NCBI GenBank assembly: GCA_014898425.1
Contig: RCSZ01000015.1
Coordinates: 62,001 to 126,000, forward strand
Origin: Botryotinia globosa
Taxonomy: Eukaryota; Ascomycota; Leotiomycetes; Helotiales; Sclerotiniaceae
DNA: 64,000 bases
Direction of reading: 5' to 3'
The position numbers and the translations under genes are program-made. Shown here in pieces: positions 37,868 to 55,155 of the stretch; position 1 is the first letter of the stretch; each line of letters starts with the position of its first letter. Below the pieces are notes generated by a model. It saw only the letters and a program-made list of their open reading frames with translations. It was not told where the DNA came from and made no database searches.

Positions 37868-39222
37868 AAGCCTACCGAGGCCGATAACGCGCATTTAGCC
37901 AAAACCCCAAAAATAGATTTCTGCCTAAGCTAAAAATGTATTTAGAATTTAGAGGTGTATATATATTAGAATAAAACTTTCAATTCAATATATAACCTTA
38001 AAGAAATTAATAAAATAAAATAAAAAGTGATATTTTTATTAATTAGAATTCAAGGAATCGATTGATATAATTCTTTTTGAATTATCTTAAAAATTAAAAT
38101 TTATATTTATTATTGAAATATTAGAATAATAAAAGATTAAATATTGAAAGCGATTTATTATTCTAATTTATTGAAATATTTCAATAATGAATATAAATTC
38201 TAATTTTTGAGATAATTTAAAAAAGATTATATGAATCGATTCCTTGAATTCTAATTAATAAGATTATCTTTTTTCTTTTTCTTTTATTAATTCTTTTAAG
38301 ATTTTGTATTGAATTGAATAGTTTCTTATATAAGTTGGAGATTGATTAATAATCAAACCTAATCTTTAAGGTATTAATATAAAAAATTCGAAAATTAGAA
38401 TTTATTAAAGTAGAATTGAATATAAAATTTGATTTTCGAAATAATTGAAAAAAGATTATATGAATCGATTCCTTGAATTTTAATAAATAAGATTATCTTT
38501 TTTCTTTTTATTTTATTAATTCTTTTAAAAATATATACTGAATTAAATAGTTTTTTTATATAAATTTAGAATTGATTAATAATTAAACCTAATCTTTAAG
38601 GTATTAATAGAATAAGTTAAGAATTGATTAATAATCAAATCTAATCTTTAAGATATTTATAAAAAAATATTTCGAAAATTGGAATTTATTAAAGTAGAAT
38701 TAAATATAAAATTTTATTTTCAAAATAATTCAAAAAGAATTATATAAATTGATTCTTTAAATTCTAATTAATAATAAAATCTTTTTTTATTTTATTTTAT
38801 TAATTTCTTTAAAGTTATATATTGAATTGAATAATTTCTTATATAAATTAAGGATTGATTAATTATATAATAAGATAAGGAATCCTTATCGGAATTCTTT
38901 CATTTATAATATAATTGTTTATACATAAAAAGAAAATTATTTAAAAAAGATTTTATATTAAAATTTGAATATTAGTATACTTCTTTTCAAAAATCCTAAA
39001 ATAGATTTTAAAAATATAATAATATTAATAATAATAAAAGCTTTCTAATAATATAATATTTTTTATAATAAAATTATAATTTATATTGTTCTGTATAATA
39101 CAATTTTTCTTTTCAAGATTTCTATAAACACACCATACAAATTATAGAAATTTTTTTTGCTTTAGGCAGAAATCTATTTTTGGGGTTTTGGCCAAATGTG
39201 TGTTATAGGCCTCGGTAAAGCC
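37868..39222. mobile_element. AT-rich TIR element, probably non-autonomous and RIP-decayed
   Basis: Ends form an inverted repeat of about 60 bases. The left end at 37868-37930 and the reverse complement of 39159-39222 share TACCGAGGCC, ATAAC, CATTT, GCCAAAACCCCAAAAATAG and ATTTCTGCCTAA. Differences are mostly G/A and C/T, as RIP would leave. The interior is extremely AT-rich with stops in all frames and imperfect internal repeats. No target duplication is certain. The superfamily is undetermined. Confidence 0.8.
38221..38860. repeat. Internal imperfect tandem repeats of about 230-285 bases
   Basis: Three diverged copies recur inside the TIR element, marked by ATGAATCGATTCCTTGAATT at 38231 and 38460 and a decayed form near 38743. 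Each is followed by TAATTAATAAGATTATC-like and AACCTAATCTTTAAGGTATT-like blocks. An inverted partial copy lies upstream near 38045-38090. Confidence 0.75.
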
Positions 39223-39463
39223 ACACATTATTGCCCTGACTATCAATCCTTGGTTACCGTTCAAATTCCATGCTAAGATGATTATAAATCGTTCTAGAAA
39301 ACACCAAGAGTTTGGTTTCTTAGACCCTTGGAAGTTGGTGAGTTTTAGATTTACATGACTTCTTAGAGTTTTTGTATTCTTTAGTAAGTAATATCGTAGT
39401 TGTTTGAGTCTTTCAAATTAAAGACATATCACGAATAGTAAAGGAAAATAATAAAGAATCTTA

Positions 39464-39831
39464 GGGCCCGTTCGAATTGTTTTTTTAATTTATTATTAAA
39501 ACGAGTTTGGTAGATTTATCAATTAGTAATTTAGTCTATATTTTATTAATATTGAATTAAATTTATAAGTTTATGAAATATAAAGTAATAATATATAAAT
39601 AAATATTAATCAAAATTCTATTACAAATTTAGTAAAATTATTATACAAATTTTTGAATTTATTAATTAATATTTTATAGCTTTCTATAAATCAATATCAA
39701 CATTCAACAAAATGATTTTTTATAATTTTATTATTAATATAAATTATTAATTAATATTTGTATTCAATAAATATCTATTTAGATTACATTTGTTATTAAT
39801 ATCACCTAAAAAAATCGATTCAAATGAGCCC
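39464..39831. mobile_element. Tourist/PIF-Harbinger-like MITE
   Basis: A 368-base AT-rich element with terminal inverted repeats: left GGGCCCGTTCGAATTGTTTT, right (reverse complement) GGGCTCATTTGAATCGATTT. It is flanked on both sides by TTA (39461-39463 and 39832-39834), the three-base target duplication typical of PIF/Harbinger elements, whose ends often begin GGGCC. The interior has no coding capacity. Confidence 0.75.
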
Positions 39832-40086
39832 TTAACTAGTATAGAATATATATTAGAAAGATTGAGTTATTTACTATAATTTAATTTTTCAGTAAAGTCT
39901 ACGCCAAAATCATTCTTTCAATTCGTATCATACTGTAATCAAACACTTCATTCTAAATGTCAATATTCGTAAGATAAAAACTATTATAGATCAAAGATAT
40001 CGGACTTATTAAGATTTTTATTAATTCCTTCGCGTTTTATTCGTTCTCTAATTTCTAAACGTCGATTTGTTATAGTAATCATGCGT

Positions 40087-40532
40087 AGCTGTTCGTTGAA
40101 CACCAAAATCACATCAAAAATAATTATTTTGCTCTATTTATAATAATAATAATAAAATATTGAAAATCATTATATTAAATCAAAGTTTCTTAAATATTTT
40201 TATTATATATTAAAGAATTTAATTTCAATATTTATTATAATTCAAAAATATAGGAATATTCTTATTTATAAAATTGAATTAATATCAAAAAAAAGTTCTT
40301 GATTTTCGCTTATTTTACTAGTAAATTTCAATATTTTAAATTTATATTAACTTTTTACATAAATTTATAATCAATAAAAATTCTAAAAATAAATAATCTT
40401 ATTTTTATTAAAATATAATTAAAATTAAAAAGATTAATATAAGATTCATTATATATAAATTATAATCTTATAGAAAAATATGTTGATAATTTACATGAGT
40501 TTTGATGCGATTTTGATATTCGACGAACAGCT
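40087..40532. mobile_element. AT-rich TIR element (MITE-like)
   Basis: Inverted ends of about 35 bases: AGCTGTTCGTTGAACACC at 40087 onward pairs with GATATTCGACGAACAGCT at 40515-40532, followed inward by CAAAATCRCATCAAAA on both sides. Mismatches are transitions. The interior is AT-rich and non-coding. No target duplication could be fixed. Confidence 0.65.
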
Positions 40533-41126: not shown

Positions 41127-42683
41127 TTAACCAGCTTGGTACATTGCCAAAGCAGCCACATGTGGGTTGACATTTGACAAATTAAAAGCAGTATAAGTTT
41201 GATTTGTATCCGTCAAAGCCAAAAACATAGTGCCGTTGATAGCTGGATCACCCTCATAAGTTGAAACATCCGGCTGAATAGTCATAGCATAATTAACACC
41301 ATTTGCTGATGAAACATTCATGAGAGGTGAATATGTAACATTCAATTGGGAAACCCACATTGCCCATGATGGTGTACCAGCACTGGTTGAAGTGACGTAA
41401 GAATTATTTGGTCCAATGGCTTGACCGGGGTTATCCCATTGAAGGTAAACCTCACGTCCTGGGTATGAGAGAGGAATCGATCGGTTTTGGGAAATGGATG
41501 CTGAACAATCAAATCCAGTGACATTGTTACCAACACATGAATCGATTGGTGCCAACTTTGAATCACTTGGTGCAGCAGGACCGAATCCTGCAGTCTCGTT
41601 GAAACCAGTTTGTGTAGCATTACGACGAGCAATGTTTGGTTGATTGAGAATGGTAAGTTGTGGGAAGTTTTGCCAAACAAGACGCTTGGAATTGGCTGGA
41701 CATGAAGAAATATATGGTGCGAGAAGAGTCCACGCCCATGATTGTGGGATACCAGTTTCAAACCAAACTGGCATGGGAAAGAGACCAGCGAATTGACGGA
41801 AGATCATTTGTTGACGAGCTTCAGTTGCAATTGATTGATCAAGAAGTTGTGCAACTTCACGTGAATCAAGATGAGCTTGGAAACCCCATACTCCAGATTC
41901 TCCATATCTAGTAAGCTTTTGAGTAAAGTCAAATGCTTCAGTAACGGTAGTGAAAGGATAATTGTATGTGCATTGTGGTGTTGCTCCACCTGGTCCTCCA
42001 AGTAAATTGGAAAGCAAAGTAGCATGGCCAGCTTCTTGATCGGCCATAAATTCGATGAGGAATCTATCACTAGGTGTGAGACCAGCAGCCGTAAATTCTT
42101 CTTCGGAGAATGTAGCAAGAATATTATGGAAGAGATCGAGTTCAATCCACTCTTGATAAAGACCCAAAAGAATTGATTGATAATCGAAATCAGATTGGAC
42201 ACGATAGACTGGTTCAGTGCCATTGGTTCCAAGTCCACCAGCTGGTTGGTATGGAATTGGTTGTGGCTCGTGAAGTGTACCATCAGGTACATATGTTGTT
42301 TCTGCTTTTCTAGCTGGCAGAATTGGTACATCACTGGCTAATGCGATAGTACTCAAAGCTCCAGTGGTTGTAGGTGTACCACTGTATGGGCCATGACTTG
42401 TGACACCAGTCACTTCAGGACTGATGATTGGTGGGAGTGGAGCAGTGGCACCTGGAATTTCTGATGCTGGAATTCCAGCGACTGAAGCGACTGATGAAAC
42501 TGCTGCGCTATTTACAGATGGCTGTTGATTGTAGGAATAGACTCCGAATGGTGAGACAGAACCGGAAGCTGCTGGGGAGCCTGTAGCAGCCTGGATTTGT
42601 CCATCGCTGATTTGACTGATGGAAGCTGGAACAGCTGCGACCGCTGCCATGAAGCTAGCAGTGATGCCTGCCTGATAAAACAT
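41127..42683 (-). CDS. rds1: Rds1-like stress-response protein, secreted ferritin-like fold
   Basis: Intronless, 518 residues. The open frame runs nine codons further upstream (ATG at 42710), but the start at 42683 gives a clean signal peptide, MFYQAGITASFMAAVAAVPA. A Pro/Ser/Thr/Ala-rich linker follows, then a ferritin-like four-helix domain: FDYQSILLGLYQEWIELDLF, with later EFMADQEAGHATLLSNLLGG and SREVAQLLDQSIATEARQQM. The Glu/His positions in these helices (E-x-x-E and D-x-E-x-x-H) are those used for metals in ferritin-like proteins. Fission yeast rds1 is induced by starvation and stress, and filamentous fungi carry many homologues. Metal binding here is inferred. The gene sits alone between two RIP-type repeat islands. 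Confidence 0.88.
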   Translation of the reverse strand: MFYQAGITASFMAAVAAVPASISQISDGQIQAATGSPAASGSVSPFGVYSYNQQPSVNSAAVSSVASVAGIPASEIPGATAPLPPIISPEVTGVTSHGPYSGTPTTTGALSTIALASDVPILPARKAETTYVPDGTLHEPQPIPYQPAGGLGTNGTEPVYRVQSDFDYQSILLGLYQEWIELDLFHNILATFSEEEFTAAGLTPSDRFLIEFMADQEAGHATLLSNLLGGPGGATPQCTYNYPFTTVTEAFDFTQKLTRYGESGVWGFQAHLDSREVAQLLDQSIATEARQQMIFRQFAGLFPMPVWFETGIPQSWAWTLLAPYISSCPANSKRLVWQNFPQLTILNQPNIARRNATQTGFNETAGFGPAAPSDSKLAPIDSCVGNNVTGFDCSASISQNRSIPLSYPGREVYLQWDNPGQAIGPNNSYVTSTSAGTPSWAMWVSQLNVTYSPLMNVSSANGVNYAMTIQPDVSTYEGDPAINGTMFLALTDTNQTYTAFNLSNVNPHVAALAMYQAG

Positions 42684-43413
42684 TTTTAAAAGTTCAATGT
42701 GAATGAACAAGTAAAAGGCGAGAAATCGATGCTTGAATGAAATAAAAATTGAATGAAAACAAGTGATTGATATAGATATTCAATTGCCACGGGAAGCTAA
42801 GGAGGTTCATGACGCTTGTCATAGAAAGCTCTTGGGGAACTATGAAGTAATGAAAAATAACAAATATATCCTTAGCTTGTCGAAATTATAACTGTTGATT
42901 GGTTCAAGAAAAGTAATTTTCATTATCATCCTTTACGTCAACACATTCAATGGAGAAAAGCTGGAGAAAGCGGTTTGGTACATGCGGTAGTACGCAACCG
43001 GTGGGAAGGTCTAGTATCGGTATCGGCATCTAAATCTTGGTTATGGGAAAGACCTTAAATATGGAAATGCATCGGGATTAAAGCCTTTCGAGGAGTAAAT
43101 GTTCCGGCTATATAAAATATTAGCAAATATTCAGTCGATCAAATTTCAATATCAAAAATGGAGGGACATGGAAATTCGCCTCAAGTTGTATGAGTATTGG
43201 GAAAGGGAAAGCTACTATTGTCCATTTTGTATGAAGAAACCTACCATACCCTATTCTCTATGAAGAAAGCTAAGAGCTAAGAAAGTTAGAATTCACGATT
43301 CGACATTAACGTCATAGCTACTCGTTTAATTTCCTATAAACTTCTAGTAACTCTATGAGAGTACCTCAGTCCATTCAAGAATCAAGTGCTTTCGTTGTGT
43401 CCGTGGGTCGCAA
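42684..43413. other. Intergenic region upstream of the rds1-like gene
   Basis: Presumed promoter of the rds1-like gene, ending at the left edge of the pogo-like element. No gene seen. Base composition is normal until about 43410. Confidence 0.5.
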
Positions 43414-43415
43414 TA

Positions 43416-44941
43416 ACCGATATCCCTACATCTTGCACAACCCCATATCTTGTACAACTTTTAGAACCTCAAAAAATATCAACTATGAAATTTATATTGA
43501 ATATTATATTAATTATAAAAAATTATATATAATAAATAATAATTCAAATTAAAACTGAAAAGAAATTCAATATAATTATCATTATGAAAATTTATAATAT
43601 CGATTGTTTTATATTATATTAATAATATAAAGGACAAATAGCTTTTTGTATTTTTGTTTATAAAGATATCTATTAATATTTCAATAAAAAGTAAGAAAAG
43701 GATTTAATTAATTAGATCAATAAGCTGATATAAAGATTTATATTTTTTATAAGTTATATAATTAAAAACTTAGTAAAAGAGATTATAGGCTGATTTATAG
43801 AGAAGAATTAAATAGTTTATTTTATCAAAAAGTATAGAAATCGTTTTAAAAATTAATATTTTCAATGTATTAATAATCTATATATTAAAATTAATAATAT
43901 TTATTATTTTAAATATTTTTATAAGCTAGTTAGTATTATTTTTAATATATAATTGATTTTTCTTATATAAAAGTTTTTGTTAATCCCTTTTTTTTATTTA
44001 TTTAATTAACAAAAGCGATTACAAAATATAATATATTATTGAAGAATATATATAATTAAAATGAAAAGAGTTTTATAATTAGATTAATATATTTTATAAA
44101 AAGGATATTAAATATTAATATTTATAAAAAAGAAAAAATAATGAAAACTATATAAAACGAATTTTAAGAGTTTATTAACCTTTTAGTATATATCTATACC
44201 AATAATATAATTATATTATTTACTTTATTATATAAAAAGGAATCGGGGAATCTTTAAGATATATGGGTTAATAAAGTAAAGGAAGAGGATAAAGCTTATT
44301 TTGAAGCTTTAAGTAATGAATAGTCATCTAATGCTTTTGATTTTATATAACTTCAAAAAGTATTTTAATATTATATATATTTAAAAGCAGGTAAAGAATA
44401 TTATTTATTTATTATAAATAATTATTCTAGTTATATGAATATAGAGTTTATATCGAAATACAATGAATTAAAAATTATATTGTTGATTTTATTATTATAT
44501 TCTATATATTGATTTCAACCTTTTGATTGCAACTTTTTCCTTTTACTTTTGATAAATTATAATATAATATTGAATGATTTATTATACAAAAGTGAAGGAT
44601 TATTTAGAATTATAAAACAAAACTTCTAGATTATATTCAAAAAAACTTAAATTCAAATTTGTATAATATATAATATATTCTCTTTTTTTAAAAAAATGGG
44701 CATTTATTTTATATATAAAGAAACTATTATTATTAATATCATATCTAAATCTACCCTTATATTATTTATATCAATGTAATTATATAGGAGTAAATTTAAA
44801 ATCTCATATAATATGAAAGCTTTTTGTAAACTCAAATTAGAATTTCAATATCAAAATAATTCTAAAATCACTTTGAAGCTTTTTAAGACTGTTTTTATTA
44901 ATATAATTAAAACTAGTATTCAATTATATAGAGCAAAGAAA

Positions 44942-44977
<36 letters not shown>

Positions 44978-45598
44978 TAATTTAAAAGATTAAACCTAAT
45001 AAAAAAGAAAACAAATAAGGCATATTTGTACTCCCCTAATGCTATTTCAAAAGCTAGGATATATCAATCTACTAAAAAACTTGTTATTTAATAGGAAAAG
45101 GAAATCAAAAAGCTAAAGAAAATTGAAAAAAAAGTCGAAAAATAAAAGAAGTATTTAAAATTATAAAAGAAAACTAAACAAAAAAAAATTAATTATCAAA
45201 TTCTATAGGGTTTCAAAAAGTATAATAAAAAAACTTCTAAAGTACAAAATTCATCTATTAAAAAGAATAAAAACACTTCAAAATCTTTTCCTATATTAAA
45301 TCTAATATTTCAAAAAGCTATAAAGCTTTCAAATAATAAGGAAATTAATATTTCAATAAATAAAAAGGAGAGAATAAAAACCAAAACTAAAAGAAAAAGA
45401 GTGATTATAATATCTATAAGATTTAAATCTTAATTATTTTATAATTCTATACAAAAATATTATATTATATTATAAACATTTAAAAATTTCAATCTAATAT
45501 CTTATAAATTCTAATTATTATTAAATATTGAAATTATAGTAATAGTGAAATTAAGATTGTGTAAGATATAGGGTTGTACAAGATATAGGGATATTGGT
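43416..45598 (+). mobile_element. Decayed pogo/Fot1-type DNA transposon
   Basis: A 2183-base element flanked by TA on both sides (43414-43415 and 45599-45600). Its ends are inverted: left ACCGATATCCCTACATCTTG, right (reverse complement) ACCAATATCCCTATATCTTG. Each is followed by a second CAACCCNATATCTT-like block, so each end holds a doubled motif. Size, TA duplication and the internal DDE remnant fit pogo/Fot1. The inside is extremely AT-rich, with a 30-odd-base A tract at 44946-44977. Confidence 0.82.
44280..45430 (+). pseudogene. Remnant of a pogo/Fot1 DDE transposase
   Basis: No open frame survives, but one plus-strand frame between 44290 and 44540 still aligns by eye with the family core. 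LFIINNYSSYMNIEFISKYN sits where transposases have the second-Asp block D-x-H-S-S-H. ELKIILLILLLYSIY is followed by a stop and then FQPFD, matching the family's K-I-I-L-L, P-P-H-S and Q-P-L-D pattern. His-to-Tyr, Pro-to-Leu and Trp-to-stop changes are what C-to-T/G-to-A mutation gives. Lys-rich frames further on resemble the transposase tail. Confidence 0.7.
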
Positions 45599-46625: not shown

Positions 46626-47395
46626 ATGGCACTTCATCCTCCACCAAATAATTCCAAACTCATTTGTAAGTTTTACCAGAACCCCGTCATGACTACTCAC
46701 CCACATATCTAATCAAGAGTCATACTACAGTCGCACCCGCCAACGACAAAACCAATGCCCAAGCAGATCAATTCGTAAAAGGCGCACTCGATCGTAAAGA
46801 TCTCGATTCCAATCCACTTACACAATTTCATTCATGGTTTTCCCACGCACAAAAAAATGGTGTTTACCATCCAGAAACCGTTTGTCTATCAACTGCCACT
46901 TTACCTTCCGGTCGCGTATCAGCACGCATGGTATACTTGAAAGAATTAGATGCCAAAGGTGGATTTGTCATATATAGTAATTGGGGAACAAGTAAAAAGG
47001 CGAAAGATATTGCGGAAAATAAATGGGCAAGTCTTACATTTTGGTGGCAAGAATTGGAACGACAGGTTAGAGTTGAGGGAAAGGTAGAGAGGTTACCTGA
47101 TGAAGAAAGTCAGGTTTATTATGATTTAAGGGCGAGGGGTAGTAGGATTGGTGCTTGGGCTAGTCCGCAGAGTCAGGTATTGAAGGGGAGAGAGGAATTG
47201 GAGGAAAGAGTTAAGGAGGTTGAGAAGAGATTTGAGGGACAGGAAAAGATACCAGTACCGGAATTTTGGGGAGGATTAAGAATTATACCGGAAATGGTAG
47301 AATTTTGGCAAGGGAGAGATAGTAGGTTACATGATCGATTTCAATATGAAAAGAAAGAGGATGGAGAGTGGGATATTCAAAGGTTAAGTCCATGA
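46626..47395 (+). CDS. PDX3: Pyridoxamine 5'-phosphate oxidase
   Basis: FMN enzyme that oxidises pyridoxamine- or pyridoxine-phosphate to PLP. Two exons, 46626-46665 and 46731-47395, join LI to FAPANDK in phase; 234 residues. Family blocks in order: SGRVSARMVYLKELDAKGGF (FMN and substrate contacts), IYSNWGTSKKAKDI, FWWQELERQVRVEGKVERL, RGSRIGAWASPQSQVL and the C-terminal signature EFWQGRDSRLHDRFQYE. Length matches fungal Pdx3. In-frame ATGs at 46509 and 46581 could add a longer N-terminus with presequence character. I prefer 46626 because it gives the usual short fungal start, MALHPPPNNSKLIF. PLP supply connects it to the two PLP aminotransferases in the window only through general metabolism. 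Confidence 0.93.
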
Positions 47396-49388: not shown

Positions 49389-50641
49389 TTCGAGAAATCT
49401 TTTCCGTAAGTATGAAAAATGGGATCCTCAAACATATGAAGAATTGTATCTTTGTTTGGCAAAAGCCAAGACTGACTATCTCAAGATAGAAGGTCGGATA
49501 TCAAAGTGTGGGGTTGTTCCCGCACCCGCCACAACTTTATCCGAACGGCAGTTTTTTATCAAGATCAAGAGTGATCAATGTAGGTGTTATGCTTTGGGAT
49601 TTGTGCTTTGGATCCTTACTTTTTAATCGCTGTTATATTTGAAAATTATGATGTCTCTCGATACGATTGAACTCTAGAGACTTTCGGGTAGGTATGTCCC
49701 TTCATCGAGGTATAATCTAATTGGGTAGTACTTAAAACCACACTCGGCACTTTACGTATACTTTCGTCAACTAAGGAGACAAGCGAGGAGAGATAAAGTA
49801 TATCAAATTTAGGTCTTGAGAGACTTGTAAAGCTGTATATTTGAATTTCTGATTTCAAATAAATTGTATATGATATCTTGAATTCAAAGTTTTGACAAAA
49901 CTCTATTGTCGGAAATTCCATTGCCAAATCTCAGAGTTTCATTACATCTTTCAAGTCTCGAAGTGTATATATGTATGACCACGTGATCATCAGACAACAT
50001 CATACAATTATAGCACATCATGACCACTCAAATAACCACCTTGATTACTGATAAATAGTATTCCCCTGAAGTAGGAGCACTAATTTAAGCCGACTTGATC
50101 AATAGTAGTTGGGGATAGTTGCAATAATAGCCTTAACTATCACCTTGAACTACCTAGTATTTATCTCATCTCACAACTAGTCAACTTCACAACTAGTCAA
50201 CCTCACAACTAGTCAATCTCACAACCACTTAACATCCTCATTCTCCATACTGCACACCACGCCTGCACAATTTCAATCCTGTTGTATTACCTTTATTCGT
50301 AAATTTCTTATGCAGTGAACTGAATTGTGGTGTCATTCACGTAGAATATATGTATATTTCATGGCCATCTACATATGCATAGCGAGGCTTGGTGTAATTG
50401 ACACGTTATTTAATATACAATTATATCGAATCACTTCATAGTGGAACGTGGAATTTGACTCAAATGCATGAGGTCTACTGGTTTTCTTTCTTTCAAATGT
50501 ATTATCATTTCTTCTTCTCAATCAATCCTAATATCAGTCTCGTCTTCACAGTCACTAGGTATCAACAATGAAGTCCACCAAAGTGCTATTCAATTACCTT
50601 AGCAAAATTTAAGAATTCATTACCCATTACTTAGTTTATAG
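49389..50641. other. Intergenic region
   Basis: About 1.25 kb without a supportable gene apart from a possible tiny first exon (50568-50582) of the next gene. It contains the 15-base repeat listed separately. A 93-codon minus frame at 49646-49927 lacks support. Confidence 0.5.
50170..50230. repeat. 15-base minisatellite
   Basis: About four copies of TCACAACTAGTCAAC with single-base drift. Confidence 0.85.
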
Positions 50642-51600
50642 AATATACTATGCAATTGGAATCATTATCCAGACCGTCCGTCACGATGTAGAGGGACAAA
50701 TATTCCAGGAAGTATGTATTGCACCCGGCGTACGTTATCCAAGCCTGGAATCTCTCCGTCAAGATTCATATGGACTCTATTTTCTTGATTCAAAATCACT
50801 GATTATTGCAATAGACAAATGTGCGAGATGCATCAATGCTGTTGAGCCTCGCTCTCCCTTTTGTTCTCAGCGTAAGGTTTTGTTTGAATGTTAAATGAGA
50901 ATGTAACTTTCTAGGTCGACTTATTGATCATGGGAATAGATAAACAGTCCGCCGGCAGAAAAACCAAATGTAACGAGAATCAATGCAACGAGGCGCAATG
51001 CAACCGACCTGCTTTAGGGAATGGAATAAACTACTGCTCTCACCGCGAGTGTGAAATTACAGCTTTTCGTGGTTCCCTATTCAACATTGTGGTTCCCTAC
51101 TCAATATTCCGCTTTCGATACTGATCAAAAGAAGATAAATGTCTTGATCGGAATTGCAATAAGTTGATATCTGTTGGAATGGCATGGTGTTCAGAGCGTA
51201 AGCATTCACATTTTATCAAGTCAAAATAGAATATAGGACTGATGTATTTCCTCCAGATTCCAGATGTACCATACAAAACTGTTATTCCTTGAGAGTTGAC
51301 CGCGCGGCGATGTGCATAGCTCACAAATGTCAAGATCCTACATGTGGTAATTACCAATTCGATCTCTCGAGATCTTGTGTAAGCCATAAGTGTCATTTCA
51401 GTGGATGCTTAAGAAAAAGGTGTTCGGAATATAACGTGTGCTGCGACATTCATAATTGCTGGAACTCATACTGTCAAAACTTGAAGGAAATGAATGGCGG
51501 GAGAATGTTTTGTCTGCCTCGCAATTGCTCGAAGTCGGGATGCTTATCACCTATAGTAGAGGGAACAAAACTTTGTGTAGATCATGTTCGGGTGAATTAG
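50642..51600 (+). CDS. Cys/His-repeat protein A (possibly decaying)
   Basis: Unrecognised gene, paralogous to the neighbour at 52004. A phase-consistent model has exons 50642/50645-50711, 50815-50871, 50940-51044, 51132-51197 and 51257-51600, about 212 residues. Repeats of C-x2-H-x(1,2)-C-x4-C are clear in the last exon: MCIAHKCQDPTC, SCVSHKCHFSGC, CCDIHNCWNSYC, FCLPRNCSKSGC (His replaced by Arg) and a closing LCVDH. The junction HSRCTIQNC matches HSTCTIGFC in the paralogue. Warning signs: the codon aligned with the paralogue's ATG is ATA, although a tiny upstream exon MKSTK from 50568 could supply a start through a weak donor. One intron needs a GC donor (51045), and another must skip a good CTAG acceptor that leads to a stop. 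The 5' half is therefore uncertain. Zinc binding is inferred from the ligand pattern. Confidence 0.55.
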
Positions 51601-52003
51601 GTATGGGATTCACCAGTATTGATGGAAATTAATGAAAACATTGTTAACATTAATAGTAAACAAGCATCATGATCTTCTTCATCACAGATATAACCAGGCG
51701 TAATGAATAGTATATGAGTCTTGACTGAATGACATGAATACATTATTCTCTCTACATATTCACTCACCAATCCTCCAAGTAAATTAAAATCTACCTCGCA
51801 CCAGGGTCATGATAATTTCCTTCTTCATTTTAATCAACAATTGATCATTCAAATGTTTTCTTCCATCACATCACATCACATCACATCACCTCACCGTCAA
51901 TTCCATCTTATATAAGAACCAAGAACCAAGACTACCCACCAACCTATCCCTCAATCCAAAAAACCTACAATCTACCATCAACCATCAACCACCTCAACCC
52001 AAT
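51601..52003. other. Intergenic region between the Cys/His-repeat genes
   Basis: A CACAT microsatellite lies at about 51866-51890. TATATAAG at 51909-51916, about 90 bases before the next ATG, is a plausible TATA box for the downstream gene. Confidence 0.6.
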
Positions 52004-52637
52004 ATGCCTTGTCATTGGCAACCCCGTGGAGAAAGACGATGTAATGGAGTCAAAGAACCCGGAACCATTTTCTGCAAAGAACGTAAGTATATGTCTTTTC
52101 CTCAAATATTCATCCATAATAACCATATCAAAAGATATATGTCACAACGAAAAATGTCCCGAACGAATGCTCAATTATGATACATGGTGGTGTGAAAAAC
52201 GTATGTAAAATCCCCTACTCCCCTTCCTCAATTCCCTATGAAGACAACCAAAAACTAACACCAACCCAGACTCCACCTGCACCATCGGATTCTGTCCCCT
52301 CCCCCGCTATCATTCCTCCCTCACCTGCACCACGCACAAATGCCACACCCCCAACTGTATATTTCCACAATACCTCCCATCAAGCTACTGCAGCGGACAC
52401 AAATGCCACATCGACAATTGTCTACGTACACGCAAATTGAGCAATCGATTTTGCGATCGTCACGAGTGTATGATGAGCGAGTGTTTGAAATTGAAGGAGA
52501 TGGGTGGTGGGACTGTGTATTGCGCGGCGCATACTTGTCAGATGATGGGGTGTTTGGAGGGGAAGGAGGGGGAGGAGGTGGAATTTTGTGAGGGACATGG
52601 GAGGGAGGTGGAGAACGGTGGGGGGAAGTGGATTTAG
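52004..52637 (+). CDS. Cys/His-repeat protein B
   Basis: I do not recognise a named family. Three exons, 52004-52082, 52135-52200 and 52270-52637, give 170 residues. The whole chain is a run of C-x2-H-x(1,2)-C-x4-C modules spaced by 10-12 residues: FCKEHICHNEKC, WCEKHSTCTIGFC, TCTTHKCHTPNC, YCSGHKCHIDNC, FCDRHECMMSEC, YCAAHTCQMMGC and a final FCEGH. Each module offers three Cys and one His, enough for one zinc ion, so six small zinc modules are likely. No signal peptide or membrane segment is seen, so an intracellular site is likely. Both introns are phase 1 and split the His codon after its first base. The last 25 codons run into GGA/GAG-rich DNA. Paralogous to the gene at 50642-51600. Confidence 0.82.
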
Positions 52638-52809: not shown

Positions 52810-53066
52810 GAGAGAAACCAGAGAGAGAAACCAGAGAGAGAAACCAGAGAGAGAAACCAGAGAGAGAAACCAGAGAGAGAAACCAGAGAGAGAAACCAGA
52901 GAGAGAAACCAGAGAGAGAAACCAGAGAGAGAAACCAGAGAGAGAAACCAGAGAGAGAAACCAGAGAGAGAAACCAGAGAGAGAAACCAGAGAGAGAAAC
53001 CAGAGAGAGAAACCAGAGAGAGAAACCAGAGAGAGAAACCAGAGAGAGAAACCAGAGAGAGAAACC
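52810..53066. repeat. 12-base minisatellite, about 21 copies
   Basis: Near-perfect GAGAGAAACCAG units, with a few degenerate ones to about 53105. The unit length is divisible by three, so several frames on both strands stay open for over 100 codons (RETRERNQREKP or SLWFLSLVSLSGF). They begin and end with the array and are not genes. Confidence 0.95.
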
Positions 53067-53227
53067 ATAAATCAGAAACCAGAGAGAGAAATCAGAAACC
53101 AGAGGCAGGAACTCCCCTATCCCTCTCCATTCCCAATTCACCAAGAAATATACTTATAAATCTCCTGCTTACCCACCCATCTATCTATCTACCCGATATT
53201 CTCTTATTGTAATAACCAAAAGATAAT

Positions 53228-53334
53228 GAATTCAAGGAACTACCAGAATTCAAGAACTATCAGAATTCAAGAACTATCAAAATTCAAGAACTATCAAAAT
53301 TCAAGAACTATCAAAATTCAAGAACTATCAAAAC
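53228..53334. repeat. 17-base minisatellite
   Basis: Six copies of AATTCAAGAACTATCAA, the first degenerate. Confidence 0.93.
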
Positions 53335-53832: not shown

Positions 53833-55155
53833 CTAAAGATGAGCACTCTCTTGTTGTGTCTTCCTAACAACCTCATCAACTGCCTTTGCAAAATAATCAA
53901 TATTATTAGTATTCAAACCAGCCATACTAATTCTACCATTCTTTGTCATGTAAACATGAGCTTCACTTCTCAATTCCATGACTTGTTTCTCAGATAATCC
54001 TGTATATGAAAACATGCCAATTTGTTCCGTGATATGATTCCATTTTCCTGGTGTACCCATTTCCTCAAGTTTGGATCGAAGTTCTTTACGCATGGTAATA
54101 ATTCTTCCAGACATTTCTCTCAAATTTGCTTCCCATTCTTTGAATAATGATTCATCATTCAAAATAGTACTAGCAATTCTAGCACCATATGCTGGAGGAT
54201 TTGAAATTTCGGATCTTTGTAAAATAGCCAATTGACTCGAGATTCTGGCAATGTTTTGCTCGGCATCTTTTCCTCCTCCAGTAATGAAATGAAAACATCC
54301 AGTACGTTCACTGTATAAACCAAGATTTTTGGCAAAAGATTGAGCGATACAAAGTTCAAAACCTTGTTCAATGAAATAACGAACGGCCCAAGCATCTTTT
54401 GCCAAGTCTCCCGAAGCAAACCCTTGGTATGCACAATCGAAGAAAGGGAAATGTTGTTTTTGTTTCAAAAGAGCGGCAAGTTCTTTCCATTGATCTTGAG
54501 TTGGATCCACACCAGTAGGATTATGTGCACAAGCGTGTAAGAGAATGATACTCTTATCCGGAGCATTTTGAATGGTATTCTTCATTCCATCGAAATCGAG
54601 ACCTTTTGTGGATTTTGAAAAGTATGGATATGTAGCGACTGGCAGATGAACATTGGAGAAGATTTGATTATGATTTGCCCATGTTGGATTACTGAAATAA
54701 ACCGTAGGAGAACCTGGGTAAAATTTCTTGATGAAAAGTGCCCCGAGATGAACAGCGCCTGTTCCTGATATAGTTTGAACTGAACAAGAACGTTTCTCTG
54801 CCAAAGCTGGAGAATCTGCACCAAGCATAAGTTTCGCGGCTGCAGATGTAAAAGTGTTGAGACCAGTGATGGGAAGGTATTCGTGATTTAGAGCGGGGTC
54901 ATTACGAAGGATTTCATCAGCCTAGAAATCAATATTAGCAGATGTTTAAATAATTCAAGCAATGAAATTGAATACCTTCTTGACAACAGGTAAAACCCAA
55001 GGTTTAGCATTGTTATCTCTGTAAGCTCCAATACCCAAATCAACCTTTTTATCAAAAGTATCAGCACGATACGCAGCCATTAATCCAAAGAGGGGATCTT
55101 CGGGAGCTTGAGGAACTGTATCCTCTGGAAAGCTTGTATTGGATAATTGAGACAT
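53833..55155 (-). CDS. AAT2: Aspartate aminotransferase, cytosolic/peroxisomal type
   Basis: Interconverts aspartate plus 2-oxoglutarate and oxaloacetate plus glutamate using PLP. Two exons, 55155-54976 and 54921-53833, give 422 residues. Landmarks: DLGIGAYRDNNAKPWVLPVV at the start, SGTGAVHLGALF (phosphate loop), ACAHNPTGVDPT, FPFFDCAYQGFASGDL (Asp and Tyr on PLP), Lys258 in SFAKNLGLYSERTGCF, and the substrate-binding Arg of GRISMAGLN. There is no mitochondrial presequence. The C-terminus is Ala-His-Leu, which fits the PTS1 consensus (S/A/C)(K/R/H)(L/M); yeast Aat2 also ends in a PTS1 (AKL). Peroxisomal import is inferred from this. It is the cytosolic-type paralogue, not the mitochondrial one. 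Confidence 0.95.

Follow-up and report, generated by a model that had tools for sequence, protein, structure and literature searches.

Tandem fingers of the form C-x4-C-x~10-C-x2-H, joined by a Gly-rich linker, make up the Zf_WRKY19 family (PF24906), and TNFAIP3 has a series of seven zf-A20 fingers (PF01754), with the spacing C-x(2-4)-C-x11-C-x2-C. Metallothioneins are defined by clusters of C-x-C or C-x-x-C pairs. The zf-C3Hc3H profile (PF13891), a 'potential DNA-binding domain', has 62 positions. TRM13 makes 2'-O-methyladenosine in tRNA and has one CCCH finger, near the N terminus of this tRNA methyltransferase (PMC5740945). We analyzed two genes, A and B, at positions 50642-52637 of a 64 kb stretch of DNA (the window) from Botryotinia (Botrytis) globosa (Leotiomycetes, Sclerotiniaceae). 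The preliminary description had presented them as a tandem pair built almost only of Cys/His modules, and the data confirmed that they are homologous neighbours of this composition. From their sequences, the products may be an undescribed version of a familiar kind of protein, with putative single-zinc knuckles in series.

The A/B unit was nearest to Zf_WRKY19 in ligand spacing, but the Gly-rich linker is absent from A and B; identity with that family was rejected, as its profile (cut-off 27 bits) was not listed for the whole proteins or for 30 module stretches. Identity with zf-A20 was also rejected; its profile (cut-off 21.6 bits) was likewise not listed for whole proteins or module stretches, and the fourth ligand, Cys in zf-A20, is His in the A/B modules. 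The nearest profile was zf-TRM13_CCCH (PF11722), likewise of a CCCH finger, which was found for two different module positions, below its cut-off of 20.9 bits. It scored 18.7 bits against module A4 of B. aclada (E 0.0014, profile positions 12-29), 17.4 bits against B1 (E 0.0034-0.0035, profile positions 8-28 of 29) and 14.5 bits against the B. narcissicola relative P0007, and matched 2 of 25 modules at E up to 10. Since 30 distinct module stretches were scanned, the best E value was about 0.04 after that many tries, and the match, although it recurred in two module positions, is no more than suggestive. B1 of B. aclada did not match this profile. Unlike TRM13, A and B have seven to nine serial fingers without an enzyme part, and the TRM13 methyltransferase domain was not listed for A, B or their eight relatives. 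Weak matches to zf-C3Hc3H (14.5 bits for B1 of B. aclada and 14.9 bits for A9; cut-off 27) covered the first third of a profile that is much longer than the A/B units of about 20 residues.

A strong match to a known family was looked for in Pfam, NCBIfam and PDB with A, B and their relatives, and nothing exceeded any family's cut-off. Module and protein profile searches of Pfam and NCBIfam thus agreed with the preliminary description in placing the unit outside the named families; none of five family members matched in NCBIfam. In PDB, the best match to a single-protein query was a guanine deaminase (E 0.8), the family profile found nothing, and the module profile found two cotransporter sequences (E about 0.9); these matches were taken as chance. 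The same was concluded for weak E values below the Pfam cut-offs for VWC, Colipase-like, TAXi_N, zf-TAZ, PDDEXK_12, zf-CGNR, Dumpy_DPY, zf-C3H1, CxC6, Nab2-zf4, Sh_2 and LELP1. Searches of the B. globosa genome with family profiles placed nothing in A or B (Zf_WRKY19, three weak places elsewhere; zf-A20, two weak places elsewhere; zf-C3Hc3H, none), and are weak negatives, as one of them reported hits as low as 14.2 bits but missed B1, which scores 17.4 bits. AlphaFold2 models were without confidence: the mean pLDDT was 31.5 for the B. aclada B protein, and a piece of B spanning two modules reached 40.5.

Structure of genes B and A

Gene B lies on the forward strand and has three exons with GT-AG introns, which encode a product of 170 amino acids. 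Exon 1 (52004-52082) contains the start codon and a variant first module, B1 (C-x9-C-x10-C-x2-H), exon 2 (52135-52200; 66 nt, symmetric phase 1) contains module B2, and exon 3 (52270-52637) contains modules B3 to B7 (52278-52337, 52341-52400, 52404-52463, 52467-52532 and 52536-52598), the tail and the stop codon. The B. aclada protein EAE96_009076 (P0001; 68% identical) aligned with protein B without gaps over both exon joins. Protein B consists of seven CCCH modules, six of them of the strict form C-x4-C-x(10-12)-C-x2-H in addition to the variant B1, with linkers of 1-2 residues between modules. All 21 Cys residues are in ligand places and, with seven ligand His, give 28 ligand positions. In 20,000 residue shuffles of B, the maximum number of strict modules was three, compared with six in the real protein; a chance run of Cys and His as the origin of the B modules was ruled out by these shuffles and by the ligand conservation described below.

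No annotated gene B of B. globosa was listed in three protein searches, and the gene is probably absent from the public annotation of this species. A second open frame (52123-52440, forward strand; 105 amino acids, Pro/Thr-rich) overlaps the exons of gene B but is out of frame with them. The B. elliptica prediction P0002, which includes a piece of the B orthologue, is mostly in another frame and is similar to the 52123-52440 frame; this alternative frame is probably a gene-calling error. Directly downstream of gene B, a thirteen-base tandem array, GAGAGAAACCAGA, is present in 22 copies (52810-53096), and further short tandem arrays were seen at 50170-50225, 51069-51108 and 53229-53333.

Gene A (about 50642-51600, forward strand) was modelled as five exons that form one open frame of 218 codons. 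By this model it has nine modules, where the preliminary description had counted at least five, and the suggestion that module number varies also held, with seven modules in B and nine in A. Exon 1 (50642-50729) contains module A1 (C-x11-C-x10-C-x2-H). Exon 2 (50815-50871; 57 nt, symmetric phase 1) was placed on its open frame and contains module A2 (C-x2-C-x10-C-x2-H), which was in no annotated relative's protein. Exon 3 (50940-51044; 105 nt, symmetric phase 1), followed in the model by a GC donor, contains module A3, which has an additional Cys at its head and is preceded by a linker of nine residues. Exon 4 (51135-51197; 63 nt, symmetric phase 1) contains module A4, and exon 5 (51257-51600), which accounts for most of the annotated B. 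globosa protein EAF00_010139 (P0003), contains modules A5 to A9 (51265-51324, 51328-51387, 51391-51453, 51457-51522 and 51526-51585) and the stop codon. Modules A3 to A9 have the strict spacing, except that Arg takes the place of the closing His in A8. Protein A has 30 Cys residues, with one C-x2-C (in A2) and one C-C (in A7).

Support for the exons of gene A comes from the open frame and, to some extent, from the relatives P0004 and P0008. Module A3 was also present in P0008 of B. tulipae and, partly, in P0004 of B. aclada. Module A4 was present in P0004, whereas the annotated P0008 joins A3 directly to A5, so that either A4 is missing in B. tulipae or the annotation is wrong. P0003 matches the window frame at 51202-51600 after its first seven residues; its annotation begins only in exon 4 of gene A, with an acceptor placed 27 nt upstream of that in the present model. 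For two reasons we infer the later acceptor of exon 5 to be the more likely: it gives gene A the His present in B at the corresponding intron, and a branch-like CTGAT site, read by eye, falls between the two acceptors. Gene A has no in-frame ATG at the position of the start of gene B; an in-frame stop codon lies just upstream, and no in-frame ATG occurs before 50714. The closing residue of A8, Arg in B. globosa, is His in P0004 and P0005. The missing start, the GC donor after exon 3 and the Arg of A8 suggest either decay of gene A in this strain or a fault in the model.

Module unit and ligand conservation

The exon borders and the first module showed that the natural unit is C-x4-C-x(10-12)-C-x2-H (CCCH). 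The C-x2-H-x-C-x4-C unit proposed in the preliminary description was therefore in the wrong register: the six junctions it had identified in gene B are real, and what it took for a separate closing C-x2-H belongs to the last module, of which it forms the end. Counted at junctions not cut by introns, C-x2-H-x-C-x4-C occurred eight times in the six frames of the window, three times in A, four times in B and once elsewhere (10512, minus strand). The spacing had been described as regular, and so it proved, although it was not absolute: A2 has C-x2-C, and the first pair of A8 is spaced x4 in B. globosa, x5 in P0005 and x7 in P0004. The last module of B has x11 in B. globosa and x10 in B. aclada.

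All six introns as placed (two in B and four in A) cut the codon of the closing His after its first base, between C and AY, so the single-module exons are phase-1 symmetric; the lengths of internal exons are all multiples of 3. The splice sites of gene A, and with them the match between its exons and modules, belong to a model guided by this split-codon rule, and the two introns of B, supported by P0001, are the ones independent of it.

Proteins A and B are homologous, with 38% identity, and share most of their module lengths as well as some residues specific to individual modules. In their order along the proteins, A1 corresponds to B1 and A4 to A9 correspond to B2 to B7, so A carries two extra modules, A2 and A3. 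Five of the seven positional pairs had the highest score of their row (A1-B1, 61; A5-B3, 34; A6-B4, 36; A7-B5, 52; A8-B6, 56). A4 scored 35 against its partner B2 and 36 against B1 and B6, and A9 scored 31 against its partner B7 and 32 against B6.

The ligands are conserved above the rest of the proteins. Between B and P0001 of B. aclada, 28 of 28 ligands were identical, compared with 85 of 138 other residues (P = 6e-6). Gene A gave a similar result against B. aclada A (P0004; ligands 26/27, other residues 68/126, P = 9e-6) and against P0005 (16/17 and 49/77, P = 0.01), and between the paralogues B and A the figures were 27/28 and 35/133 (P = 2e-12). The excess was not significant for two close pieces, P0006 (7/7 and 38/47, P = 0.26) and the first 49 residues of P0007 (7/7 and 40/42, P = 0.73), each compared with B. 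The comparison covered A, B and the relatives other than P0002, P0003 and P0008.

Relatives and genomic neighbourhood

Eight relatives (P0001-P0008) came from three protein searches, which covered 5.8 billion sequences; six of the eight were assigned to Botrytis or Botryotinia species. B. aclada also holds an A/B pair with consecutive tags, EAE96_009075 and EAE96_009076, recorded on contigs of equal length, and pieces of B orthologues were found in B. elliptica (P0002), in B. narcissicola (P0007) and in P0006. As far as was found, the family is restricted to Botrytis, although absence elsewhere is weak evidence, as hits depend on predicted proteins and on five-residue words in common, a limit that matters above all for small intron-rich genes. 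Two protein queries against the B. globosa genome itself (45.7 Mb, 27 contigs), for which few candidates were scored, gave no copies beyond A and B. In viral contigs, none of 32 pattern matches was confirmed. Among the literature matches listed, for terms other than the locus tags, no paper was recognisably about these genes.

On either side of the pair, by eye, an open frame at 46670-47395 (forward strand) looks like pyridoxamine-phosphate oxidase and one at 53833-54921 (minus strand) looks like aspartate aminotransferase. AT-rich tracts (12-26% GC in 500-base bins) at 38000-40500 and 43500-45500 flank an open frame at 41127-42779; on visual inspection, these tracts may be degraded repeats.

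Putative function of the A and B proteins

The explanation that we consider the most probable, and hold with some confidence, is that A and B are Botrytis-restricted intracellular scaffolds of serial zinc knuckles that bind protein or nucleic acid. Each CCCH module probably takes one zinc and would fold round it, with the closing His and three Cys as ligands. The whole protein would then be a rod of small knuckles, seven in B and nine in A, and the variable module loops of 10-12 residues would bind protein or nucleic acid. Each of the leading modules is a phase-1-symmetric exon of its own, so that gain or loss of a whole exon could change the module number with the frame intact.

The conservation of the ligands is also what would be expected of a metallothionein-like buffer, a chain for the storage or detoxification of Zn, Cu or Cd in which nothing but the Cys and His would count. 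The invariant ligands amid a drifting remainder, the 21 Cys and seven ligand His within 170 amino acids of B, and the different module numbers of A and B agree with it. However, protein B has C-x4-C and C-x2-H only, without the C-x-C or C-x2-C pairs of metallothioneins, and pure metal buffering, which had been put forward for these genes, is less likely because module-specific residues, along with most module lengths, are kept between paralogues that are 38% identical. On balance such a buffer is unlikely. The possibility that A and B diverged from a known CCCH finger linked to RNA or chromatin, of the TRM13 or C3Hc3H type, and multiplied in tandem draws on the zf-TRM13_CCCH and zf-C3Hc3H scores given above; every one of these fell below the curated cut-offs, B1 of B. 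aclada failed to match TRM13 and the methyltransferase part is absent, and we regard this origin as doubtful.

A secreted, effector-like protein with disulfide bonds would be small, Cys-rich and confined to one genus, as A and B are so far as found. AT-rich tracts lie 5-13 kb away, and the B. aclada B orthologue reaches a hydropathy of 1.50 in its first 48 residues, at a stretch that holds ligands. However, judged by hydropathy, there was no strongly hydrophobic N-terminal segment at the starts of A or B, for which the highest 9-residue means in the first 48 residues were 0.64 and 0.61, respectively. The number of Cys in B is odd (21; A has 30) and His is kept as strictly as Cys. Intracellular zinc is favoured over disulfides because three Cys and one His are kept per module, the Cys total of B is odd and hydropathy at the start is low; zinc knuckles would thus be the better fit, and a secreted protein is very improbable.

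We propose tentatively, at less than even probability, that the serial zinc knuckles of A and B form a genus-restricted family with its own signature, in which the array varies by one-finger, phase-1-symmetric exons and the two proteins make up a natural series in module number. Public gene models are affected: the three protein searches listed no gene B for B. globosa, and the annotation of gene A begins no earlier than exon 4. If the proposal is right, the zinc-finger catalogue would gain a repeat module not yet described, and A and B would be a compact example of an array in a fungal protein that changes its length through the gain or loss of exons.
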